Shown piece by piece: positions 48,713 through 59,054 of a stretch of DNA of 64,000 nucleotides. Origin of the DNA: Streptosporangium sp. NBC_01755 (GTDB lineage: Bacteria > Actinomycetota > Actinomycetes > Streptosporangiales > Streptosporangiaceae); NCBI RefSeq assembly GCF_035917995.1, contig NZ_CP109131.1:5766001-5830000 (forward strand), read 5' to 3'. Each line of letters begins with the position of its first letter. Within the stretch, counting starts at the first letter, position 1. The notes beneath the pieces were generated by a model that was not told the DNA's origin, did not search any database, and worked only from the letters and a program-made list of their open reading frames with translations. A program made the position numbers and the translations under genes.

Positions 48713-50830
48713 TCACGGATGCGGCGCCAGCAGTTCGACCGTGCCGCGCTCGCCGTCGACCCGGATCCGGTCGCCGTCGCGCAGGCGCATGGTCGCGTTG
48801 CCGGTGCCGACCACGGCCGGGATCTCCTCGATCCGCAGGAAGAACAGGTCGTCACCGTGGCCGGTGAGCTTCCCGGCCCGCAGGACGAAGGCGCGCAACG
48901 CCCAGAAGGCGCGCATCACCTCCGAGCGGGCCGTCTCCCGGTCGCGGACGATCGCGTTCCACCGCGCCACCCGCTCTCGCGTCTTCGCCACCTTGCCGGG
49001 ATGGCGCTCTCCGAAGCGCCTCCAGGCCGCCTCGTGCGCCTCCCGCTGCCGGTCGAGCAGCGTGCCGGCGTGTCCCCGGGTTTCGGGCATGGCCGCGAGC
49101 TGCGCGTCGATCCACCTCGGGTCCTCGCCGGGACGGGCGATCGAGACCTCGAACTCGTGCGCGCCCCGGTGCCCGTAGACCCCGGCGAACGTCTCCCGGT
49201 CGATCTCCTTCGCGGCGAGCCTCTCCAGGCCGATGATCGTTTCGAGACTGGCCAGTGCCCCGTCGGTGTTGGCGCCGGTGAGCATGGCCTGGGCGTCACG
49301 CTCACCCACGAGCTCGCGCAGCCTGTCGCGGGTCATGACCAGGGCGTTGCCGCCCTGGCGCCCGGCGGCCTCCAGGACCTGGCAGGCCTCCACGAAGTAC
49401 GGCAGCAGCTCGGCCTCCCAGAGCCGGACCAGCTCGTCGGTGGTCGCGGTGGCGGCGGTCCGCTCGCGCAGGGCCGTGCAGCGCTCCCGCGCCGTGGCCA
49501 GGAAGGGGCGCATCCTCCCGGTGTTGACCGCCACCCGCCTGCGCAGGGTGAAGGCGAGCGGCAGCACGCCCTTGACGATCTGCCAGCGCGAGATCGGCAG
49601 CAGCGGCACGTCCAGGCCGGGCGGCAGCTTGCCGAAGACCTGCTCGATCGCGCCGAGCCTGCTCTGCATGCCCATGGCCCGCGCCACCGAGAACGCGATG
49701 CTCAGGTTCATGTAGAAGCGGCCGCCGATGTTGCCGACCACGCTGAAACCGGGCATCTTCGACGCCGACATCGCCTCGCCGATGAAGATCTGCACCAGCG
49801 ACCAGGTACACGGCGTCATCACGTCAGGGATGGCCTCGCGGAGGTTGGTGCCGGTCCACAGGTAGTCACCGGTCAGGCTGTCGTTCCACTCCTCGACCCG
49901 CTGCCTGAGCCGGGTGATCGGGCGGGCCTGCAGGACGAGGAACGCCCCGTCGCGCCTGGCCCACTCCACGTCCATGGCCGTCCCGTACAGCTTCTCGATC
50001 TCCGTCGCGAGCCGGGCGAGCAGCAGGGCCTGCTCGCGGTCGAGCACGCGACGGCGGCGCAGTTCCTCGGGCACGGGTTCCGCACGCGTGCCGCCGGGCG
50101 TGCGGACCGTCATGACGGTCTTGTCGCCGATGTGCTCCTCGGCTATCTCCCCGTCGGCTCCGGCCGCTTTGCCGACGACGACGGTGTCGGGCGTCACCTG
50201 CCCGCCCACGAGGGCCTCGCCCAGCCCCCAGGAGGCATTGATCACGACCTGGTCGCGCGCGCCGGTGAGCGGGTTCGCGGTGAACAGGACGCCCGCCGCG
50301 TCGGCCTCCACCAGCTCCTGCACCACCACGGCCAGCGCCACGCCGTCGTGCGGTACGCCGTTCGCCGCCCGGTAGGCGATGGCACGCGCGGTCCACAGCG
50401 AGGCCCAGCAGCGACTGACCGCGTCCGGCAGGGCGTCGGCGCGGACGTTGAGGTAGGTGTCCTGCTGACCGGCGAACGACATGTCGGGAAGATCCTCGGA
50501 GGTGGCCGACGAGCGCACGGCGACCGGTACGTTCGCGCCGAGCCTCGCGTGGGCCGCGCGGATCTCGGCGGCGGTCTCCGCGGGCATCTGCCGGGCGGCG
50601 AACAGCGCGGCGATGTGCCGGGACGCCTCCTCGGGGGGCATCCCCGATACGGCCGCCATGATCTGGTCGTTCAGGCCGTCGCGCGAGACGAAGTCGAGGT
50701 AGGCGTCGGTGGTGACGTGGAAGCCCCCGGGAACCGGCAGGCCCGCGCGGGCCAGCCGGGCCAGCGAGGCCCCCTTGCCGCCCGCCAGGGCGAGGTCGGC
50801 GGCTTCGTCGTCAAGGGGGAGGGTCTTCAA
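48713..50830 (-). CDS. PEP-synthase/rifampicin-phosphotransferase-like protein, phosphohistidine domain deleted
   Basis: 705 residues. The ATP-grasp N-terminal half is intact: LALAGGKGASLARLARAGLP, VPVAVRSSATSEDLPDMSFA, LFTANPLTGARDQVVINASW and EWARRDGAFLVLQARPITRL. The middle region also looks normal to GHGDDLFFLRIEEI. There the sequence jumps (about 48820) to PAVVGTGNATMRLRDGDRIR, the very end of the C-terminal swivelling domain. The ~130 residues with the catalytic histidine and TxSHxAIVARE-type motif are missing without a frameshift. It may still bind ATP but cannot complete phosphotransfer. It overlaps a TetR gene (ATGA) that probably controls it. Confidence 0.85.
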   Translation of the reverse strand: MKTLPLDDEAADLALAGGKGASLARLARAGLPVPGGFHVTTDAYLDFVSRDGLNDQIMAAVSGMPPEEASRHIAALFAARQMPAETAAEIRAAHARLGANVPVAVRSSATSEDLPDMSFAGQQDTYLNVRADALPDAVSRCWASLWTARAIAYRAANGVPHDGVALAVVVQELVEADAAGVLFTANPLTGARDQVVINASWGLGEALVGGQVTPDTVVVGKAAGADGEIAEEHIGDKTVMTVRTPGGTRAEPVPEELRRRRVLDREQALLLARLATEIEKLYGTAMDVEWARRDGAFLVLQARPITRLRQRVEEWNDSLTGDYLWTGTNLREAIPDVMTPCTWSLVQIFIGEAMSASKMPGFSVVGNIGGRFYMNLSIAFSVARAMGMQSRLGAIEQVFGKLPPGLDVPLLPISRWQIVKGVLPLAFTLRRRVAVNTGRMRPFLATARERCTALRERTAATATTDELVRLWEAELLPYFVEACQVLEAAGRQGGNALVMTRDRLRELVGERDAQAMLTGANTDGALASLETIIGLERLAAKEIDRETFAGVYGHRGAHEFEVSIARPGEDPRWIDAQLAAMPETRGHAGTLLDRQREAHEAAWRRFGERHPGKVAKTRERVARWNAIVRDRETARSEVMRAFWALRAFVLRAGKLTGHGDDLFFLRIEEIPAVVGTGNATMRLRDGDRIRVDGERGTVELLAPHP

Positions 50831-51588
50831 GGCGTACTCTCCTCAGTGCCAAGGGAGACGCGCAGTTTCCGCTGCGCGGCCTCCACAGCGGCGTCGACGT
50901 ACTCCAGGGTGGCCCGCGCCACCGCGCGGGCGTCGGCGGCCGGGACCGGGCCGCCGGGCTCCAGCGCCCTGCCGCCGGCGTCGGCGATCAGCTCCGCCAG
51001 GCGCTCGTCGGCCGGCTGATATCCGGCCGGCATCATCGGCGAGACGCTCAGGAACCCGTACAGGACGGAGACGAGCGTGGTCACGTGCTCGGCGGGCGAC
51101 AGGTCGCTCCGCAGGGCGCCGTGTTCCAGCAGCGTGCCGAAGTAGCCCGGGAAGCCGCCGCCCAGCTCGGCGCCCGCCGGACGGTCCCGCTTCTGGCGGG
51201 TGAGCCTGCCCAGCACCTCCGAGTCGCCCAGGACACTCGCCCGAATCAGGGGCCTGCCCAGGATCTCGGAGGCGAGCAGCCTGAGCAGCTCTCGGAGAGT
51301 GGCGGGGCCTTCTCCGATCCGCCTGCGCACCTCGGTGATCATCTCGACCCGCTCGCGGCGCAGCAGCGCGGTGAACAGCTCCTCGCGGGTCTTCCAGTGC
51401 AGGTAGATCGTGCCCTTGGCGACCCCGGCCTGCCGGGCGATGTCCTCGACGGTGGTCTTGTCGTACCCCCAGCGCAGGACGAGGTCGCCGGCGATGTCCA
51501 GGATGTGGTGCGCTCGGGCGAGCCGCTGCGAGGCGTCCTGTGGCGGCCGCCCCACCCTTCTGGTCCGTGACTCCACGATCCCCACCAT
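50827..51588 (-). CDS. TetR-family transcriptional regulator
   Basis: 253 residues. N-terminal HTH: RAHHILDIAGDLVLRWGYDK, TTVEDIARQAGVAKGTIYLH. The helical ligand domain follows with no recognisable specificity. Its stop overlaps the ATG of the PEP-synthase-like gene, so the pair is one operon and the regulator probably represses it. An inverted repeat 13-36 bases upstream of the start is a plausible operator. No strong ribosome site; the ATG is the best family-like start. Confidence 0.92.
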   Translation of the reverse strand: MVGIVESRTRRVGRPPQDASQRLARAHHILDIAGDLVLRWGYDKTTVEDIARQAGVAKGTIYLHWKTREELFTALLRRERVEMITEVRRRIGEGPATLRELLRLLASEILGRPLIRASVLGDSEVLGRLTRQKRDRPAGAELGGGFPGYFGTLLEHGALRSDLSPAEHVTTLVSVLYGFLSVSPMMPAGYQPADERLAELIADAGGRALEPGGPVPAADARAVARATLEYVDAAVEAAQRKLRVSLGTEESTP

Positions 51589-51600
51589 TTCCCAAAAATT

Positions 51601-51624
51601 TGACCGTATGAGCTTATCTGGTCA
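51601..51624. promoter_or_regulatory. Possible TetR operator
   Basis: TGACC and GGTCA are separated by 14 bases and centred in an AT-rich region just upstream of the tetR start, where a repressor would block transcription. Symmetry is limited to five bases per arm. Confidence 0.45.
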
Positions 51625-51645
51625 TTTAATTGATGGTACATCGCC

Positions 51646-51674
51646 GGGAAGGGGTGGGCGAGCATGCCCTTCCC
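51646..51674 (-). terminator. Hairpin downstream of the gene at 51741
   Basis: GGGAAGGG and CCCTTCCC are perfectly complementary with a 13-base loop. It lies 67 bases after the stop of the minus-strand gene to its right, between it and the tetR promoter, and occupies the same place relative to the MerR-tail repeat as the hairpin at 57558. Confidence 0.5.
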
Positions 51675-51676
51675 TC

Positions 51677-51726
51677 GGGGTGGCCCGGCTGAAGCCGGGG
51701 TCAGATCGGGAATACGCGCAGTGCGG
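51677..51726. repeat. Fragment matching the 3' end of the MerR gene at 57613
   Basis: About 50 bases (ggggtggcccggctgaagcc ... cgcgcagtgcggcga) match 57584-57636, which spans the end and 3' flank of the MerR gene, with a few mismatches and one gap. It looks like the tail of a lost paralogue. Confidence 0.65.
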
Positions 51727-51740
51727 CGACCCTTCGTCGG

Positions 51741-52142
51741 TCAGGTGAACCTGAGCGTGATGGCGTCGCTGTGTCCGGACCAGTTCAACGTCAGACGCCA
51801 GCATCCCGTCCTGGGCAGGTTGACCGATGAAGGCCCCGGGCCTCCGTCGATCTCGCGGACCACCGCCGTCGTCGTCCCGTCCAGCATCGCTTTGATGGTC
51901 AGCGGCCGCATCGGCTGCTGCGGCAGCCGCGAGACCCAGAGAATCTTGTTCGTGACGTCAGGATCGGTGGAGGCCGCCAGCGGATAGCCGAACAGCACGG
52001 CGATGATGTCGCCGTGCTCGCTGAACACGTGGGGCACGCCCGAGCCGTCATCGCTGAACCCTGGCCTCGTCCAGGTGGGCAGCGCGTCTCGGGTGACGGT
52101 GGAAACGCACGCGACGGCCGACGGCCGGGCCCTCTTCGGCAT
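51741..52142 (-). CDS. Hypothetical (probably secreted/lipoprotein-type) protein, start uncertain
   Basis: The C-terminal ~120 residues look genuine: VTRDALPTWTRPGFSDDGSG, VPHVFSEHGDIIAVLFGYPL, NKILWVSRLPQQPMRPLTIK, GGPGPSSVNLPRTGCWRLTL. I recall similar actinobacterial exported proteins of unknown function. The N-terminus is uncertain: the ATG at 52142 gives a short basic start then AVACVSTV, where a lipobox cysteine might be; the frame stays open to 52292 but reads as an Arg/Gly-rich shadow. A damaged signal sequence is possible. Confidence 0.5.
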   Translation of the reverse strand: MPKRARPSAVACVSTVTRDALPTWTRPGFSDDGSGVPHVFSEHGDIIAVLFGYPLAASTDPDVTNKILWVSRLPQQPMRPLTIKAMLDGTTTAVVREIDGGPGPSSVNLPRTGCWRLTLNWSGHSDAITLRFT

Positions 52143-52553
52143 TGGGCGCCGGATCGCTCGCCGGCTGGTGGCCCTGCTGCTCCAGTCCCTCCGCGCCCGC
52201 CCGGCCGACCCGCCTGCCCCCCCTTCCACCGGCCGTCGCCCTCGGACCGCATCACCTGGTGAACCCAACGACGACGTGAACAGCCTCATCAAGGATGATT
52301 CTTGGTTTCGCGGACATTTTAGGGCCGATACGGCAATTTACTCTGCGGCGAGCTTGAAGGAATGACCGGATATTGAGGAATCTGAGGTCATCTGAGTAAT
52401 CGTTATAGCCATCGAATCAAGCCATCTGGCTGTCGAGCTGCGGCGATGTCGTCTAGCCTCATTGCGCGATCCCGGCAACAGGGGACATGTATTCGATCAG
52501 ATGGGCTTGTGAGAGTGCTTGTCATAGACAACACCGCACCTACACTGAGCAGT
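52143..52553. other. Region between the hypothetical gene and the Panacea gene
   Basis: About 410 bases. The left 150 could encode a lost N-terminus of the gene at 51741; the right part is AT-richer (cgttatagccatcgaatcaa) and probably holds both divergent promoters. No other gene supported. Confidence 0.35.
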
Positions 52554-53714
52554 GTGACGACCACTGTGACCCTTCGTGGTCCGGCCGCGGCCGTTGCCTA
52601 TCTTCTGGCGATGGCCCGTTCTCGTGGTGTGCGAATCAACCGCACCAAGCTCACAAAACTTCTCTACCTTGCTGATCTACGTGCTGTCGAGCGCGGACTT
52701 CCTCCCGGCTCGGGCGTCGAGTGGAGATGGCGCCACCATGGCCCGCATAGTCTGCGCCTCGCCGAGATCGAGCGAGATCTTCGCGAGGCGGGCATCATCC
52801 GGGTGGAAGAGACAACCGATCCTTTCGCCGGTCACCGGGAATGCCTCATCCATCTTGTGGATGCTCCTCAGACGGACATCGATGCCGAGTTCGCGGAGAT
52901 CGTGAACGCGGTCCTGGCCGACTACGGACAATGGTCGGCAGGACAGTTGCGCGATCTCACTTGTCAGACGTCTCCGGTGCGGGAGGCCGTCAAGCAGCAC
53001 AGGCATGAGGTGCGGCTTGACCTTGCCGGAGGATCGCCCCTGCCCGACCTCGGCTCTGGGCTGATGCCGGCGGCCACCGCTCTCCCGGCTTGCTCAAGGA
53101 CCAGAGTGGGGTCGTACGACCGACATCGGGCGATGGCGGACGGTCTATCGGATCAGCCCGGCCGTAGCAGTTCGACGAGTTCCGGGGCGATGCCCGGGAA
53201 TTTCCGGTCCGCGGTGAGCAGCGCGTCGGCCCCTACCGCACGGGCGGTCGCGATGATGAGGGTGTCCGGTACTCGGATTGTCAGGTCCGCGGCCCTGAGC
53301 AGGGCCGCGCTCTCGGCCGTCGTCTCGTCCACCTCGACGATCCGGTCGATGACGGCGGCACGGAATGCCTCAAGCATCTTCTCGGCCGCGACACCCTTGC
53401 GGACCGCACCCACCCGCAGTTCGCTCCAGGTGATCACGGAGATGGCGAACGAGGCCGCCTTGTCCTCCCGGCGGCGAACGGTGTCACAGGCATGGCTGTG
53501 CAGCGCGTCGTCGGGATTGAGCAGGCCGGCGATGACGTTGGTGTCGAGCATCACGGTCGGCACCCGTCATCTCCAGCTCTCGCGGCTCGCCTCGACGTCC
53601 ACGGCCTCGGTGAAGCCGGGGATGGTGCCGATCACCCGGTCGAGACGGCTGCGGTGTCGCCGGATGACGATCTGGCCGCCCTCTTCGGCGATGTCAACCA
53701 GGTCTCCCGGGTGA
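52554..53714 (+). CDS. Panacea (SocA/DUF4065-like) antitoxin-type gene with chimeric tail
   Basis: From a GTG at 52554 (52509 and 52446 also possible) the first ~170 residues form a Panacea domain: LLAMARSRGVRINRTKLTKL, LYLADLRAVERGLPPGSGVE, WRWRHHGPHSLRLAEIERDL and QWSAGQLRDLTCQTSPVREA. Such domains neutralise many unrelated toxins. Homology ends near 53062; beyond it the frame runs into a MerR-gene fragment and then antisense through VapC to a stop at 53714, so the tail is not original. The natural C-terminus is apparently lost; an imperfect copy of its last ~85 bases exists at 53918. No toxin is adjacent in the same direction. Confidence 0.6.
   Translation: MTTTVTLRGPAAAVAYLLAMARSRGVRINRTKLTKLLYLADLRAVERGLPPGSGVEWRWRHHGPHSLRLAEIERDLREAGIIRVEETTDPFAGHRECLIHLVDAPQTDIDAEFAEIVNAVLADYGQWSAGQLRDLTCQTSPVREAVKQHRHEVRLDLAGGSPLPDLGSGLMPAATALPACSRTRVGSYDRHRAMADGLSDQPGRSSSTSSGAMPGNFRSAVSSASAPTARAVAMMRVSGTRIVRSAALSRAALSAVVSSTSTIRSMTAARNASSIFSAATPLRTAPTRSSLQVITEMANEAALSSRRRTVSQAWLCSASSGLSRPAMTLVSSITVGTRHLQLSRLASTSTASVKPGMVPITRSRRLRCRRMTIWPPSSAMSTRSPG
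53058..53117. repeat. 60-bp fragment of the MerR gene
   Basis: gggctgatgccggcggccac ... gtcgtacg matches 57827-57886 inside the MerR gene at 57 of 60 positions by hand count. It begins exactly at the end of the Panacea homology, sharing GGGCT with it. Confidence 0.8.
53153..53563 (-). CDS. vapC: VapC-type PIN-domain toxin
   Basis: 136 residues. The acidic PIN residues are in VMLDTNVIAGLL (D7), SVITWSELRVG (Glu), IRVPDTLIIATARAVGA (Asp) and ALLTADRKF (Asp). VapC toxins are Mg-dependent RNases acting on tRNA or rRNA. The antitoxin gene lies three bases upstream on the same strand. It lies on the strand opposite the Panacea frame. Confidence 0.93.
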   Translation of the reverse strand: MPTVMLDTNVIAGLLNPDDALHSHACDTVRRREDKAASFAISVITWSELRVGAVRKGVAAEKMLEAFRAAVIDRIVEVDETTAESAALLRAADLTIRVPDTLIIATARAVGADALLTADRKFPGIAPELVELLRPG

Positions 53715-53836
53715 AGACCGAGCGTGCGCAGGACCGCCGCCGGCAAGGTCACCTGGTTCTTGCTGGAGATACGTGCCGGCCCCGTACGCCTGGCACGTGT
53801 TCTCTTGCCGTGCTCCATAACCTTTACTGTAGCCAT
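53567..53836 (-). CDS. vapB: VapB-type antitoxin, AbrB/MazE fold
   Basis: About 89 residues. The swapped-hairpin AbrB segment is ARISSKNQVTLPAAVLRTLG, followed by LHPGDLVDIAEEGGQIVIRR; the C-terminal RLDRVIGTIPGFTEAVDVEA would wrap and inhibit VapC. It precedes vapC in the operon. Start: ATG at 53836 lies inside an 8-bp inverted repeat; an ATG at 53818 is also possible and would place the repeat wholly upstream as an operator. Confidence 0.88.
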   Translation of the reverse strand: MATVKVMEHGKRTRARRTGPARISSKNQVTLPAAVLRTLGLHPGDLVDIAEEGGQIVIRRHRSRLDRVIGTIPGFTEAVDVEASRESWR

Positions 53837-53848
53837 CACAAGTAAAGG
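53821..53848. promoter_or_regulatory. Likely VapB operator
   Basis: CCTTTACT and AGTAAAGG form an 8-bp inverted repeat with a 12-base spacer at the vapB start, the usual place for toxin-antitoxin autoregulation. Confidence 0.6.
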
Positions 53849-53917
53849 CCAAACGGTGTGACGCATGGCATGCGATTGGTTTCAGAAAGTCACCGCGTGT
53901 CTGTCAGGCGCCTCTGA

Positions 53918-54002
53918 TGCGGAAGGCCGTCAAGCAGCACGGGCATGAGGTGCGTCTTGATCTTGTTGGAGGGCCGCCCCCACCTGACCTCGGCCCCGGG
54001 CT
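53918..54002. repeat. Second copy of the Panacea gene tail
   Basis: 85 bases matching 52978-53062 at 72 positions by hand count. The plus-strand frame reads RKAVKQHGHEVRLDLVGGPP, as against REAVKQHRHEVRLDLAGGSP in the first copy. The two copies flank the MerR fragment and VapBC. Confidence 0.85.
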
Positions 54003-54122
54003 CGCCAGGCCCCGTCGATGGGCCGATTCTGGTTGATCACCCAGAACACCCAAGGGCGACACGCGAGCCCTTCGAGCGTTGGACCTACCGTGCGACGGCG
54101 ACGCCGAGTCGATGCCCCTACA

Positions 54123-55205
54123 GTGACTATCGTGGATCGAACTGAAGTCGTGGTGCGCAGGCCGCAGGGTCCGGATGAGCGACTCCGTGCCGGGGCAGTG
54201 CTTTCACGCACCGGAACCCTCGCGAAGGTCCAGTGGGACGACGATGGAGTGGTGGAGGAGAATGTACGGCTCGGCGGTGAGAATCTGCTGGCCGTCGTCG
54301 GCACCCGGCGGCATCAGTTCCTGATGAACCTGCCCGTCCTCATCGAGCGGTTCACCTCCGATCCTGTCACCGTGGTCTTGGAACTCCTTCGCGAGAGCCG
54401 GAAAGGGCTCAAGGCTCCGGCCATCAAGGAGCTTCTCGTCGAGCTTGGCCTGGAGCCGGCGGTCGTGGACCGAACGTGGAAGAGCGTGCAGGCGAAACTG
54501 TCCAAGCGTGACGACGTGCGCATCAGGGCAAACACATACAGATGGGCGCAGCCGAGTCCGACTGAGGATATGATCGCTCCTCCGGCTGAAGTCGACGTGA
54601 TGGATACTCCGGCTTCTACAGCTCCTGAGGCTTCCCTGGTGGTTCCTGCGGTTCCTTCTACAGCTCCTGAGGCGGTTTCTGCGGTTCCGGAGATTCCCAC
54701 GGCTCCTCCGACCGAAGTCGGCGAGGATGTGACCGGGCCGGAGACGCCTGCGCCGATCCGGAAGGACGACGAGGCTGCGGCCGACTTGGCAGAGGCGGCA
54801 GAAGACCGGGTACGGGTGCTCGCCGAGCGTTGCGAACGTCTGGAACGGGACCTGCGGAGCGCGAACGACAGGGCGATCGAACTCCGCACCGCCCAGAAGC
54901 GTCAGCTTCAGATCGATGTCGTGCGCGCGCTTGCCGATCTCGCAGCCGAGATCGAGGAAATGGTGATCGGCAGGACCGCCCCGGAGATCGTTGTCGAGCG
55001 GGTGCGAAGCCTCGTCGCGGGACAGGCGCTGCACCCCATCGGCACGGTGGGCGAGGAATACGGCTTCGACCCCGCGCTGCACGCCCCTCTGGTCGGCGCA
55101 CCGGAGCCCGGAACGCCGGTGAGCGTCATCCGTCCCGGATATCGCTGGGCCACCTTCGAAGAGATCCTCCTCCACAAGGCGCTGGTCGAGCGGGTGCGAG
55201 CATAG
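54123..55205 (+). CDS. Unknown protein: winged-helix-like middle, GrpE-like C-terminus
   Basis: About 360 residues from a GTG. The N-terminus (VVVRRPQGPDERLRAGAVLS, then LAKVQWDDDGVVEENVRLGG) looks like a small beta-barrel. Residues ~75-145 (DPVTVVLELLRESRKGLKAP ... WKSVQAKLSKRDDVRIRANT) resemble a winged helix. A Pro/Ala/Thr-rich linker and a coiled coil (ERCERLERDLRSANDRAIEL) follow. The end (FDPALHAPLVGAPEPGTPVS, VIRPGYRWATFEEI) is reminiscent of the GrpE beta-wing. I cannot name the family. Lower GC and isolated position suggest accessory DNA. The frame extends upstream to 54018 but is unsupported there. Confidence 0.65.
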   Translation: MTIVDRTEVVVRRPQGPDERLRAGAVLSRTGTLAKVQWDDDGVVEENVRLGGENLLAVVGTRRHQFLMNLPVLIERFTSDPVTVVLELLRESRKGLKAPAIKELLVELGLEPAVVDRTWKSVQAKLSKRDDVRIRANTYRWAQPSPTEDMIAPPAEVDVMDTPASTAPEASLVVPAVPSTAPEAVSAVPEIPTAPPTEVGEDVTGPETPAPIRKDDEAAADLAEAAEDRVRVLAERCERLERDLRSANDRAIELRTAQKRQLQIDVVRALADLAAEIEEMVIGRTAPEIVVERVRSLVAGQALHPIGTVGEEYGFDPALHAPLVGAPEPGTPVSVIRPGYRWATFEEILLHKALVERVRA

Positions 55206-55578
55206 TCAGCTGAGAGAGGCGGCGCCCCGGCTGGAGCAGTTGTGCCCGTTGCCGGGAACGGCCCGCCGTACGACCGGGTCCTCGGGCCGGGCAGCCGATG
55301 AGCGGCTGCCAGCCTGGACGAAGTTCCCCCCGACCTCGGCGTATTGACCAAGACTTGGCCGTTAGACGGCCCGTTCGGGAGTGAGCAGAGCTCGTAGGCC
55401 GCTTTTTGGGAGTGCTTCGTGGTGGTCAGATGGGTCCGGCTTGACGTGAGCGTCCTTAGCGATCTTCACCCAGCGCCGGGATGTGCCAATGAGCAACCGC
55501 CGAGCAACCACGGCCGATCTCGCCTCGCCGCCGAGGCCCCAAACCGGGACAAAGTCCCCGGTCAAATCGGGTCATAAG
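55206..55578. other. Gap left of the tRNA fragment
   Basis: 373 bases without a supportable gene. Near the right end ACCGGGAC-aaa-GTCCCCGGT (about 55543-55561) is a short imperfect hairpin. No integrase remnant was recognised. Confidence 0.35.
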
Positions 55579-55627
55579 TGGTGGGGCGCCAGAGATTCGA
55601 ACCCTGAACCTACGGATTAAAAGTCCG
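55579..55627 (-). tRNA. tRNA-Lys (anticodon TTT), 3' fragment only
   Basis: On the minus strand the sequence has the anticodon arm CGGA-CTTTTAA-TCCG, the variable loop, the T arm CAGGG-TTCGAAT-CTCTG, an acceptor strand GCGCCCC, discriminator A and an encoded CCA. The D arm and 5' acceptor strand are missing; similarity stops at about position 28 of a tRNA. A 3' tRNA half of this kind is the usual footprint of a site-specific integration at a tRNA gene. It cannot make a functional tRNA. Confidence 0.8.
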
Positions 55628-55835
55628 GCGCCGCTGCCGCACCCGAGTGCGGGGCTGCGCCGACGGATCGACCGGATACTACGCGTGCACGGTTTCGTCG
55701 AGTGGCACGGCAGCGGGGAGCACGCCGGCGCGGCCGGAGGTGTCGCCGGCGAGATGTGGACTCGTCGCGGTTCACATCGCCACCTGGCCGGATACGCCCA
55801 TCATGGACGGGGCTTGGCCTTATAAGCTGACGCGT

Positions 55836-57422
55836 ATGGCGGCGCAGCTCCCTCTTGATATCTGTCATTGCGACGCGTTCGCCGCCGCCCGCGCGCTTTC
55901 CGTCTGGGTGGGGGCCGGACGGGCGGTCACCCCTGGTGGTGCGCTCAAACCCGCACTGGTCCCGCAGGCCGCCAAGACTCTGGGTGTGCCGTGCCCGGCC
56001 AAGGTCCGGCGGGCCGGCGACATCGCCGCAGTCCATCGTCCGTGGGTGACCGCACTGGCCGCCGGACTCATCACGATCTCTGGCAGCCGCGCCGTACGAG
56101 TGGAGACACCGGCGGAGCCGACCCCGCAGTCGTGGTTCGTGGCGCTGGAACGGGTGCTCCAGGCGCAGGTGACCGATCCATGTGACGCCGACTCGCGCAT
56201 CGTCTGCCAGGCGACGCTCACCGCGATGGCCACCGAGCCGCCGCCGTTCGGACAGGCGTTGCGCCAGGTGATCGCCGAGGTGATGGTGCAGCGCGGTGAC
56301 TGGGACAGGTACGCCCCCTACCTGGCCGAAGAGGTCATGGTGCATCCCGTTGATCGGATCGTCGAGATCCTGCGCGACTTCGGCGCGCTCGACCGGCACA
56401 TGGCGCTCACACCTCTGGGGGAGTACGCGCGGGCCGAACTCGGCCGTCGGGTCCCGCCGCCGATCACCAAGGACCTGCCCGCCGCTGAGGTGCTGCGCTT
56501 GCTGGCCGCCCTGCCCGAGGAGGAGATCTGGGAACCGGTGTGGCGCTGGCTCGACATCGACCCGTTCCGGGCCGATTCCACGCGTGACGCCTTTCGGGAG
56601 CTGCTGTGGGCCGCCGCGGACGCCACCCCTGCCGGACGGATCAGCGCCGTCGAGGTGATCGGCGAACGCGGCGAGTACGCCCTGCCACTCTGGCGCGAAG
56701 TGCGCGAGCATCCCGTGCTCGGCGCGCATGCCCGGTCCGCTCTCGCCGACCTGGACGATGGACCCGTCCTCGCGCAGAGGGACCTGTGGTGGATCGCGAT
56801 CGACCATGCCCTGGCCGCGCTGGAGCGCCACGGCGTGACCGACGCCTGGTACATCCTTCGTGACGTGGCCGACGGAGACGCCCGCGACGCCGTACGCGAC
56901 AGCGGCCATCCCGATGCCGCCGGGCTGCTGGCCGCGCTGCCGCCCACCCCGCCGCCGATTCCCGCCCACCAGCTCAAGATCTCTCTGTACGGCGGGTTGT
57001 GGCGGCGCGTTCTGGTCCCCGAGAACCTCACCCTGGGAGACCTGCACGAAGTGATCCGTGTCCTGTTCGGCTGGGGTGACGATCACCTGCACGTGTTCGA
57101 GACCGCCAAACGCAGGTACGCCGATCCCTTCCACGGGCTGGAGGAGTGCGGCGACGAGTACGCCTACCGGATCAACCGGGCGCTTCCGTCACTCCGCTCG
57201 AAGATCACCTATATTTACGACCTCGGTGACTGCTGGAAGCACGAGATCGTCCTGGAGAAGATCCATGACGAAGTCACCCGCCCGGTCTGCGTGGGCGGCA
57301 GGGGGGACAACCCGATCGAGGACTACAATCCCGAATACCCCGAAGACCCCGTTCCTTTCGATCAGGACGCCGTCAACAAGCGACTGGCGGCGCGTTTGGA
57401 GTCGACCGAAGTCGCGTACTGA
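55836..57422 (+). CDS. Plasmid pRiA4b ORF-3 family protein
   Basis: About 528 residues from the ATG at 55836, with a TATAAG -10-like box 10-15 bases upstream. The C-terminal ~140 residues are the pRiA4b_Orf3 domain: LKISLYGGLWRRVLVPENLT, LHEVIRVLFGWGDDHLHVFE, YIYDLGDCWKHEIVLEKI and NPIEDYNPEYPEDPVPFD. The first ~385 residues are helical and unrecognised. The family is found on plasmids and islands; function unknown. It lies immediately right of the tRNA fragment, consistent with mobile DNA. The frame is open to 55647 but enters the tRNA scar. Confidence 0.82.
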   Translation: MAAQLPLDICHCDAFAAARALSVWVGAGRAVTPGGALKPALVPQAAKTLGVPCPAKVRRAGDIAAVHRPWVTALAAGLITISGSRAVRVETPAEPTPQSWFVALERVLQAQVTDPCDADSRIVCQATLTAMATEPPPFGQALRQVIAEVMVQRGDWDRYAPYLAEEVMVHPVDRIVEILRDFGALDRHMALTPLGEYARAELGRRVPPPITKDLPAAEVLRLLAALPEEEIWEPVWRWLDIDPFRADSTRDAFRELLWAAADATPAGRISAVEVIGERGEYALPLWREVREHPVLGAHARSALADLDDGPVLAQRDLWWIAIDHALAALERHGVTDAWYILRDVADGDARDAVRDSGHPDAAGLLAALPPTPPPIPAHQLKISLYGGLWRRVLVPENLTLGDLHEVIRVLFGWGDDHLHVFETAKRRYADPFHGLEECGDEYAYRINRALPSLRSKITYIYDLGDCWKHEIVLEKIHDEVTRPVCVGGRGDNPIEDYNPEYPEDPVPFDQDAVNKRLAARLESTEVAY

Positions 57423-57426
57423 ATCT

Positions 57427-57557
57427 GAAAGCTCGGCGTGACGCTCGATCATGCCGCTGACCTGCAGCGATAGATAGCCTTCGGGTAACGTTCACCTTTG
57501 ATCGTCAGTAGCGGTGCCATGTTGCCGGACACGTCCACCAATCTTCGGCAATCGCTC
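57427..57557. other. Gap between convergent genes
   Basis: About 130 bases; the minus-strand frame reads NMAPLLTIKGERYPKAIYRC, which might be a remnant of an unrelated small gene, but I cannot assign it. Confidence 0.3.
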
Positions 57558-57581
57558 GGGGGCGGGACGGAGCCCGCCCCC
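57558..57581 (-). terminator. Hairpin downstream of the MerR gene
   Basis: GGGGGCGGG-acggag-CCCGCCCCC is a perfect 9-bp stem about 30 bases after the MerR stop codon. A related hairpin occurs at 51646 beside a copy of the same flank. Confidence 0.75.
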
Positions 57582-57612
57582 CTGGGGTGGTCCGGCTGAA
57601 GTCGGGGTCGGG

Positions 57613-58527
57613 TCAGGATACGCGCAGCGCGGCGATGAACCATTCGAAGGCGGGGACCCTGGGCGGAAACGGCGGCCTGCCGTTGAGCACGCCCACGAGC
57701 TGCCAGTAACGCTCCACCCGGCGGTCGGTGAACGTCTCCACATGGTCGGCCACCCGGGCACGGTCTCCGGCGGGCAGTGCCGGATCCACGATCTGATCCA
57801 GGATCGCCCTGCCCTCGGCCGACTCGGGGCTGATGCCGGCGGCCACCGCTCTCCCGGCGTGCTCAAGGACCAGCGCGGGGTCGTACGGCTGCGGCCCGGA
57901 TTCGTCGCCGGGTGTGGCACCGGCCACCGCCATCTGCCGTACGCGTTCCTGGAAGCCGGCGTCACCCACGAGTTCGGCGAGCTCCAGCCAGGCCTCCACC
58001 TGCTCCGGGCTGGGGTCGTCCGGCAGCTCTGCCGGGATCTGGCGCATCGAGGTCGCGATGTGGGCCCCTGGCGACTGTGGGTCGATGCCGTCGAACGTGC
58101 GGTCGACGAAGTCGTCGATCATTCGCTGCCGTTCCTGAGCGGACAGGCGGATCAACTTGTGCATGAGCATCATCTCCTCGGTCGTGCTTTCCTGTTGGGC
58201 GATCGACCGCAGCACTGCCCGGCGCAGATGGAGGGAGCGGATCTGGGTGTCCAGCGCCCGTACATATGCTCGCGCGACGTCGGCCACCGTGCACTGCCTG
58301 GTAAGGACCTGTCGGACGGTGTCGAGGTCCAGTCCCAGTTCGCGTAGCGTTCGCACCAGGTCAAGCCGGGCCACCGCCTCCATGTCGTACAGGCGGAAGC
58401 CGCCCGCCGACCGGCACGTCGGCGGGATGACACCGATGTCGGACCAGAAGCGGATCGTACGCACCGACAGGCCCGTGCGGTCAGCGAGCTGTCCGATGGT
58501 GAGCAGTCGGTCGCGGTCGTTCACCAC
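57613..58527 (-). CDS. MerR-family transcriptional regulator
   Basis: 304 residues. The MerR winged helix is intact: TIGQLADRTGLSVRTIRFWS, GVIPPTCRSAGGFRLYDMEA, then VARLDLVRTLRELGLDLDTV. A long C-terminal helical domain follows (TEEMMLMHKLIRLSAQERQR, PEQVEAWLELAELVGDAGFQ), suited to binding an effector, as in larger MerR regulators. It starts at GTG, and a canonical MerR promoter directly upstream implies a leaderless, autoregulated mRNA. Fragments of this gene or a close paralogue are scattered at 53058 and 51677. Confidence 0.93.
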   Translation of the reverse strand: MVNDRDRLLTIGQLADRTGLSVRTIRFWSDIGVIPPTCRSAGGFRLYDMEAVARLDLVRTLRELGLDLDTVRQVLTRQCTVADVARAYVRALDTQIRSLHLRRAVLRSIAQQESTTEEMMLMHKLIRLSAQERQRMIDDFVDRTFDGIDPQSPGAHIATSMRQIPAELPDDPSPEQVEAWLELAELVGDAGFQERVRQMAVAGATPGDESGPQPYDPALVLEHAGRAVAAGISPESAEGRAILDQIVDPALPAGDRARVADHVETFTDRRVERYWQLVGVLNGRPPFPPRVPAFEWFIAALRVS

Positions 58528-58530
58528 AGC

Positions 58531-58561
58531 AGCATCAGCCCTCCAGTCACTGGAGAGTCAA
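58531..58561 (-). promoter_or_regulatory. MerR-type promoter with 19-bp spacer
   Basis: On the minus strand TTGACT (-35) and GATGCT (-10) are 19 bases apart, the long spacing of MerR-controlled promoters, and the spacer holds the perfect palindrome CTCCAGTgACTGGAG (58541-58555). The expected start of transcription falls on the GTG start codon. Confidence 0.8.
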
Positions 58562-59054
58562 GCCGAATTGCGCGGTTCCCCGGGTCAATGGCCATTGGTC
58601 GCCGCGAACCTCTGACGGTCACCGAGCCAGGTCGAGGTCCCGAAGAGGCCCATCGCGACACCGTACCGCGCTGGCCTGCCCGGACAGGATTCAGCGCACG
58701 ATCCGGTTCAGCCCCATCTCCTGACTGGTATTCGGCGAGGGGCGGCCCCCTGCCCAACGGAATGGCGTGAACCTCCGAGGCGCTCGGGTGGGCGTCGGCT
58801 TTCACCGGCCGCTGGGGTGGCGCGTCAACCCCTTCTTGCTCGCTGAGGTTCTTCGGTGCTGGTCAGCCCGCGCATAGGCGCTGCCGGCAGGTCAGGAAGG
58901 CGTTCTTCCAGGGCCGGATCGCGCTGACACCTCGCGGAAAGAGTCAATGAACATTTCCGTCAAATAGGCAAATAGGCGATAACGCTACTTTTCCAGCGAT
59001 CATACGTAGCACCATGCTCCTGGGTAGACCCCATCGATCTAGGAGTAAACGTCT
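58562..59054. other. Intergenic region before the secreted endonuclease gene
   Basis: About 490 bases with no supported gene. The right end is AT-richer (caaataggcaaataggcgat) and probably carries the endonuclease promoter; AGGAG lies nine bases before its GTG. A 9-base direct repeat caaatagg(c) is seen twice there. Confidence 0.45.

Follow-up and report, generated by a model that had tools for sequence, protein, structure and literature searches.

Features of the locus

The window analysed here, a stretch of 64,000 nucleotides from Streptosporangium sp. NBC_01755, sits on one contig of 8.15 Mb (the window corresponds to genome positions 5,766,001-5,830,000) and contains a tRNA-Lys(TTT) 3' half, referred to below as the core (Table 1). 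Read on the minus strand from 55627 down to 55579, the core is CGGACTTTTAATCCGTAGGTTCAGGGTTCGAATCTCTGGCGCCCCACCA; it is made of the anticodon arm with the anticodon TTT, the T arm, the 3' acceptor strand, the discriminator A and an encoded CCA. A search of the genome against itself aligned it with the intact tRNA-Lys over 48 bases (90% identity, E 1.8e-11). The tRNA-Lys 3' half is therefore real and far beyond chance, and this search confirmed the original prediction of a fragment running from the anticodon arm to CCA. The first 22 bases, CGGACTTTTAATCCGTAGGTTC, are identical to those of the intact gene, and the 5' edge of the homology to tRNA lies 4-5 bases before the anticodon loop. ARAGORN detected no complete tRNA in the window, and the Rfam tRNA model scored 30.1 bits (cut-off 29) over the 62 bases at 55582-55643, a stretch from which most of the D arm is absent. 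The own-genome search revealed no second core near the fragment, and hence no direct repeat bounding an element. The local RNA structure around the fragment was nothing special (z -0.92).

Table 1 Features in and around the tRNA-Lys(TTT) fragment (window positions)
Feature	Position	Strand	Basis or remarks
Mosaic insert, 5.39 kb	52164-57552		Close relative G008 has 268 other bases here
ORF encoding a SocA/Panacea domain, within the mosaic	52446-53714	+	Domain scan
PIN-domain toxin / AbrB-MazE-type antitoxin pair	53153-53752	-	92-94% identical DNA in G004 and G002
ORF block (its ORF 54018-55205 lacks Pfam and NCBIfam hits)	54103-55208	+	84% to G014 locus, 79-88% to G010 locus
Attachment arm past CCA ("T1" arm), ~285 bp	55294-55578	-	Four genomes from two other genera have 6 places with 74-76% identity over 272-286 bp
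Two GTTGCTC copies, 11 bases apart, inside the arm	55491-55508	-	Arm alignment; invariant in 6 aligned loci
Attachment core, a tRNA-Lys(TTT) 3' half from anticodon arm to CCA	55579-55627	-	Sequence reading, own-genome search
Stretch on the right of the core, in which neither a tRNA 5' half nor an attachment arm is recognised	55628-55814		Family-genome search, flank comparison
pRiA4b ORF-3 family gene, 528 aa	55836-57422	+	Pfam PF07929 (PRiA4_ORF3), E 2.8e-30
94-bp repeat inserted at a TA, end of pRiA4b gene	57417-57510		3 more genome copies found; absent here in G011 (S. canum)

Comparison with a close relative (G008) showed that the core and the DNA past its CCA lie inside an insert. Window positions 48812-52163 (94% identity) and 57553-58563 (92%) adjoin in this genome, separated by 268 different bases. 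Both core and arm were thereby shown, at the level of sequence comparison, to be foreign to this locus. The original prediction had proposed a comparison with relatives lacking the element; the empty site in G008 places core and arm within the insert and not at a chromosome flank. The insert is a mosaic, since the best genus-genome matches of its blocks sit in different genomes. PADLOC returned no hit for five insert proteins, and a Pfam scan of five insert proteins showed neither a replication initiator nor an FtsK-like transfer gene. The 94-bp repeat alters the last codons of the pRiA4b gene, which ends in TAG in S. canum. Its copies in the genome are 96-97% identical, six rows were found in G008 (85-95%), and with its CTGA/TCAG-like ends it looks like a small TA-targeting element. 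Two other repeats were observed: a direct repeat of 101 bp (83%) on either side of the PIN/AbrB pair (52962-53062 and 53902-54002), and a segment at 53038-53118 that resembles 57807-57887 in the MerR region (88%).

The arm past CCA and the integrases of related loci

A query made of window positions 55206-55579, devoid of any tRNA part, was compared with 341 family genomes and matched 32 of them, our own genome being counted. Outside our genome it gave 38 rows. Seventeen correspond to the arm and come from 10 genomes, which belong to the genera g54 and g48 (the latter being Acrocarpospora, as indicated by G141); the other 21 lie nearer the left end of the query, mostly in a separate small repeat (55224-55317). 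This small repeat, located between the ORF end and the arm, is 74-90% identical to sequences of many g86 genomes and some others. The strongest arm matches (E 2e-51 to 1e-37) were found at six places, two each in G164 and G182 and one each in G119 and G064, the best being in G164 (55294-55579, 76%, E 2e-51); weaker matches occur in six further genomes. The arm directly follows an intact tRNA-Lys in G164, G182 and G064, and a second copy follows a truncated tRNA-Lys 3' half in G164 and G182. As judged from these alignments, the flank past CCA is attachment-arm DNA common to other genera and not original chromosome. The original prediction had taken this flank for original chromosome; its ~285 bp resemble the DNA that follows tRNA-Lys in two other genera and are absent from the G008 locus.

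The arm belongs to a type, T1, found more widely. The 150 bases past CCA in the window were scored against T1 flanks from six loci in five genera, giving 45, 39, 33, 32, 26 and 20; 3000 random stretches set the 99% level at 26 and the 99.9% level at 31. None of 26 other flanks exceeded 26 and two reached it. One of the six comparisons (G015) was not significant (p 0.21) and another gave p 0.014 with a score equalled by two of the 26 other flanks, which counts against reading the locus as a relic of a T1-type attachment site. A query combining the core of G075 with its T1 arm found matches in 32 of 200 family genomes, which represent 16 of 68 genera; counted from the rows, 28 of these matches extend at least 71 bases past CCA and four stop sooner. 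Searches of phage and plasmid collections returned mostly tRNA-Lys matches, together with one 73% match to core and arm, from Nonomuraea gerenzanensis. The paired GTTGCTC words inside the arm, recognised by alignment, are possible arm-type integrase sites.

Integrase genes were found beside T1 arms in other genomes. At two loci of Spongiactinospora (G135, L142 and L143), a tyrosine integrase gene has its stop codon ~0.2 kb and ~0.28 kb from CCA, with the T1 arm in between; the two integrases are 89% identical over 200 aligned amino acids. Because these stop codons adjoin T1 arms, we read the T1 arm as the integrase-side (P') arm. When 16 T1 loci were searched with one G135 integrase, the gene was directly at the arm in only 2/16, another point against the relic reading. 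Four more loci had an integrase relative of 68-73% identity, three of them 3-9 kb off on the arm side and one (G023, L083) across the core; weaker matches (27-42%) were found at five loci and none at the remaining five. A further set of 10 arm loci contained an integrase of ~75% identity in three cases. L083 (G023:C16) is itself an off-site core with a T1 arm, 0.8 kb from an integrase that has its stop codon facing a tRNA-Met and is 68% identical to the T1-locus type. The locus described here thus joins a tRNA 3' core to an arm type seen beside integrases elsewhere.

No tyrosine integrase (PF00589) was matched between genome positions 5,599,640 and 6,379,226, a region that includes the window. 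The remark that no integrase is seen at the locus consequently holds from 5.60 to 6.38 Mb, and the integrase gene suggested to lie past the 64 kb was not found up to 6,379,226. A tblastn search of the window at E 1e-3 detected no remnant of a T1-locus integrase; left of the core, the search for a remnant gave weak matches only, the best with a T1-locus integrase at E 0.07. One match at E 0.001 was rejected as a remnant, as it was the tRNA itself read as protein.

Origin of the tRNA-Lys allele and sequence to the right of the core

Sequence search found a single intact tRNA-Lys(TTT) gene, on the plus strand at genome position 3,095,726; a distance of 2.73 Mb separates it from the fragment. ARAGORN identified no other TTT gene at the tRNA places listed by Rfam, one sub-threshold place (1,320,983; 22 bits) being left out of this anticodon check, and three further tRNA-Lys genes have the anticodon CTT. 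Intact tRNA-Lys genes of relatives of the same genus are found beside the same group of tRNA-Glu, tRNA-Asp and tRNA-Phe genes. The core matches the intact gene of its own genome at 43/48 bases, the five differences including a swapped T-stem pair (T-A to A-T). It matches the tRNA-Lys of other genera at 47/48 (G075 and G098) and 46/48 (G036). We read the core as a foreign allele because it is closer to the G075 and G098 genes than to the tRNA of its own genome. Past the intact gene (G000:C1:3095726-3096000) lies an arm type that, in the Planomonospora genome G029 (L077), stands between tRNA and integrase; the PF00589 search listed no integrase beside it here, and this arm is probably another remnant.

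These data bear on the geometry first proposed, that of a scar left in place (attR) with the element to the right and the intact tRNA-Lys at its far end, perhaps split later by a large inversion. The pRiA4b gene does stand on the 5' side of the truncated core, as at one core of the Planomonospora array. Nevertheless, we consider this explanation extremely unlikely: the left flank is foreign arm DNA, the core is not the host's allele, and the empty site in G008, where both sides of the insert are neighbours, contradicts it. No large breakpoint is needed here because both insert sides adjoin in G008, and an inversion separating the fragment from the intact gene was rejected on the same grounds. 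The intact tRNA-Lys expected at the far end of the element turned out to be on the opposite strand, at a distance of 2.73 Mb. The original prediction had also named a sole TTT gene lying elsewhere without any island as evidence against itself; this was borne out in part, the sole TTT gene found at the tRNA places scanned being distant.

The pRiA4b ORF-3 gene, correctly recognised from the letters as the first gene on the right, is 91% identical in amino acids and 93-94% in DNA to its counterpart in Streptosporangium canum. Homologs are patchy, with 13 of 199 other family genomes searched containing one. Four of these 13 genomes (G029, G135, G075 and G172, the last with a partial homolog of 199 aa), from four other genera, have a tRNA-Lys core 1.6-5.3 kb from the homolog. 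In the other nine none was found, and these misses are soft because several of the searched contigs measure only 4-15 kb. The association (4 of 13) would arise by chance with a probability of 2e-5 to 3e-3 if a background of 1.3-5% is assumed and genomes are treated as independent. In G135 and G075 the gene is placed past the CCA of a T1 core and in G029 and G172 it is enclosed between cores, whereas in the window it stands on the 5' side. Since homologs recur near tRNA-Lys cores, the right-hand gene may have come with the island or site. This recurrence argues against a random mosaic; judged from gene neighbourhoods, the pRiA4b cargo may have travelled with the attachment site as one piece.

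The DNA between the core and this gene gave two weak partial matches only in the 341 family genomes. Compared with 39 tRNA-Lys 5' flanks (30 from truncated sites, 9 from intact genes), it matched none at the 95% null level (best score 23, null 26). The recurrence of the pRiA4b gene fits the hint drawn from the right-hand gene, but the sequence next to the core gives no sign of an element on the right. We also looked for a tRNA 5' half by anchored alignment of the 30 bases ahead of the CCGGA that precedes the loop with the 5' halves of five intact tRNA-Lys genes. Four gave p 0.034-0.059 and the fifth p 0.33; at 12 other truncated sites, p ranged from 0.037 to 1.0 against one of those tRNAs. The similarity to a badly decayed 5' half is borderline. 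In agreement with the original prediction, the 5' half is absent or unrecognisable.

These values matter for another explanation, in which an extra tRNA-Lys gene was imported with its downstream flank and decayed by a deletion in the D arm. The Rfam score just above the cut-off over 62 bases, the p values of four of the five alignments and the presence of the same flank after an intact gene in G164, G182 and G064 are in its favour. However, a truncated control site in G004 scored as well (p 0.037) as the borderline values of the window, and the 5' flanks of the nine intact genes were not recognised in the window. We regard this explanation as very improbable.

The position of the homology edge, near the recombination point of these elements, would also fit recombination in place, and in this respect speaks against a relic. 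A non-tRNA site immediately to the right of 55627 could have recombined with the tRNA-like core of a T1-type element, most of the element being lost later. Such an off-target integration would place the lost element on the left, on the CCA side, and its product would be local DNA, core and P' arm in this order. An arm is indeed found on the CCA side only, with nothing attachment-like on the right, the homology stops near the usual crossover, and in G004 a truncated integrase lies beyond the CCA of a similar off-site core. Yet the DNA on the right, up to 57552, is insert DNA and not chromosome common to G008, and neither a second junction nor an integrase remnant was found. Off-target integration thus appears unlikely to us.

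A probable relic of a foreign attachment site and its relation to known systems

Collectively, these observations make it likely that the ~335 bp at 55294-55627 are an immobile relic of a foreign tRNA-Lys(TTT) attachment site, brought in with unrelated cargo. The original prediction was right that the fragment is tRNA-Lys attachment material; its geometry, with the element on the right and a native left flank, did not stand. We hypothesize that the core-arm junction was made by an AICE-like element from a different genus whose tRNA-Lys resembled that of G075, G098 or the g54/g48 genera. A broken piece would then have entered Streptosporangium with unrelated cargo, by a non-site-specific recombination that replaced ~268 bp. 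The integrase end would be gone, so that no island is expected to excise from this place.

Related genomes indicate that tRNA-Lys(TTT) is a much-used docking site across the family; a single arm type is shared by many genera, and the patchy pRiA4b ORF-3 gene recurs nearby. The tRNA-Lys query matched 52 of 60 related genomes (intact genes included), several with more than one match a few kb apart. The loci inspected, using gene calls from our own simple caller and not from a standard one, have an intact tRNA-Lys followed on its CCA side by tandem 3' halves, each starting at the anticodon loop. Truncated copies near that gene in many relatives agree with the view, already held in the original prediction, that the fragment is attachment-site material from a tRNA-Lys 3' end. 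Planomonospora sp. ID82291 (G029; L075, L076 and L077) contains a tRNA-Lys and four truncated 3' halves within 38 kb, with several flank types, and this is a large accretion array. Cores of 47-48 bases also occur off-site, megabases from the intact gene, at L053 (G003:C1:8906670) and L056 (G004:C1:7875840), the latter being the one with the truncated integrase; a further T1 site in G004 is at C1:1462782. As the relic retains 22 bases of the crossover region that are identical to the host tRNA-Lys, and as off-site cores are also present in G003 and G004, off-site 3' halves might be portable landing pads that moved between genera with their arm. We consider this very unlikely; if true, it would provide a second docking site for tRNA-Lys integrases away from an essential tRNA gene. 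For island mapping, the locus calls for caution, as finding a tRNA 3' half does not by itself show that an island ends there. What decides the matter is which allele the half represents, where the DNA past its CCA comes from and whether a relative has the site empty.

No literature on tRNA-Lys integrative elements in Streptosporangium was found with the terms and collection used. Three known systems can be compared with the locus. CIMEs formed by accretion (PMC8369830) similarly have attachment-site DNA beside cargo without an integrase. Unlike these CIMEs, the locus has one attachment core and its cargo is not enclosed between two sites; cis-mobilisation is not expected here because the core is single. 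Displaced tRNA fragments mark the ends of tyrosine-integrase genomic islands, as described for Islander (PMC4383910). The core resembles these fragments in spanning the anticodon arm to CCA, as do the other tRNA-Lys sites of the family, whereas it comes without an island, an integrase or a restored tRNA at the other end, and with a foreign allele and a foreign arm. AICEs integrate at tRNA genes; PMC3218068 reports tandem AICEs at tRNA-Lys in Frankia and tRNA remnants as suitable AICE integration sites. Compared with these AICEs, the window is without an integrase and ~335 bp of attachment region are recognised, whereas the tRNA-Lys target is the same and, in relatives, a tyrosine integrase beside the attachment site and tandem arrays (G029) are found as well. 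The case belongs to a known kind, of which it is a new example.
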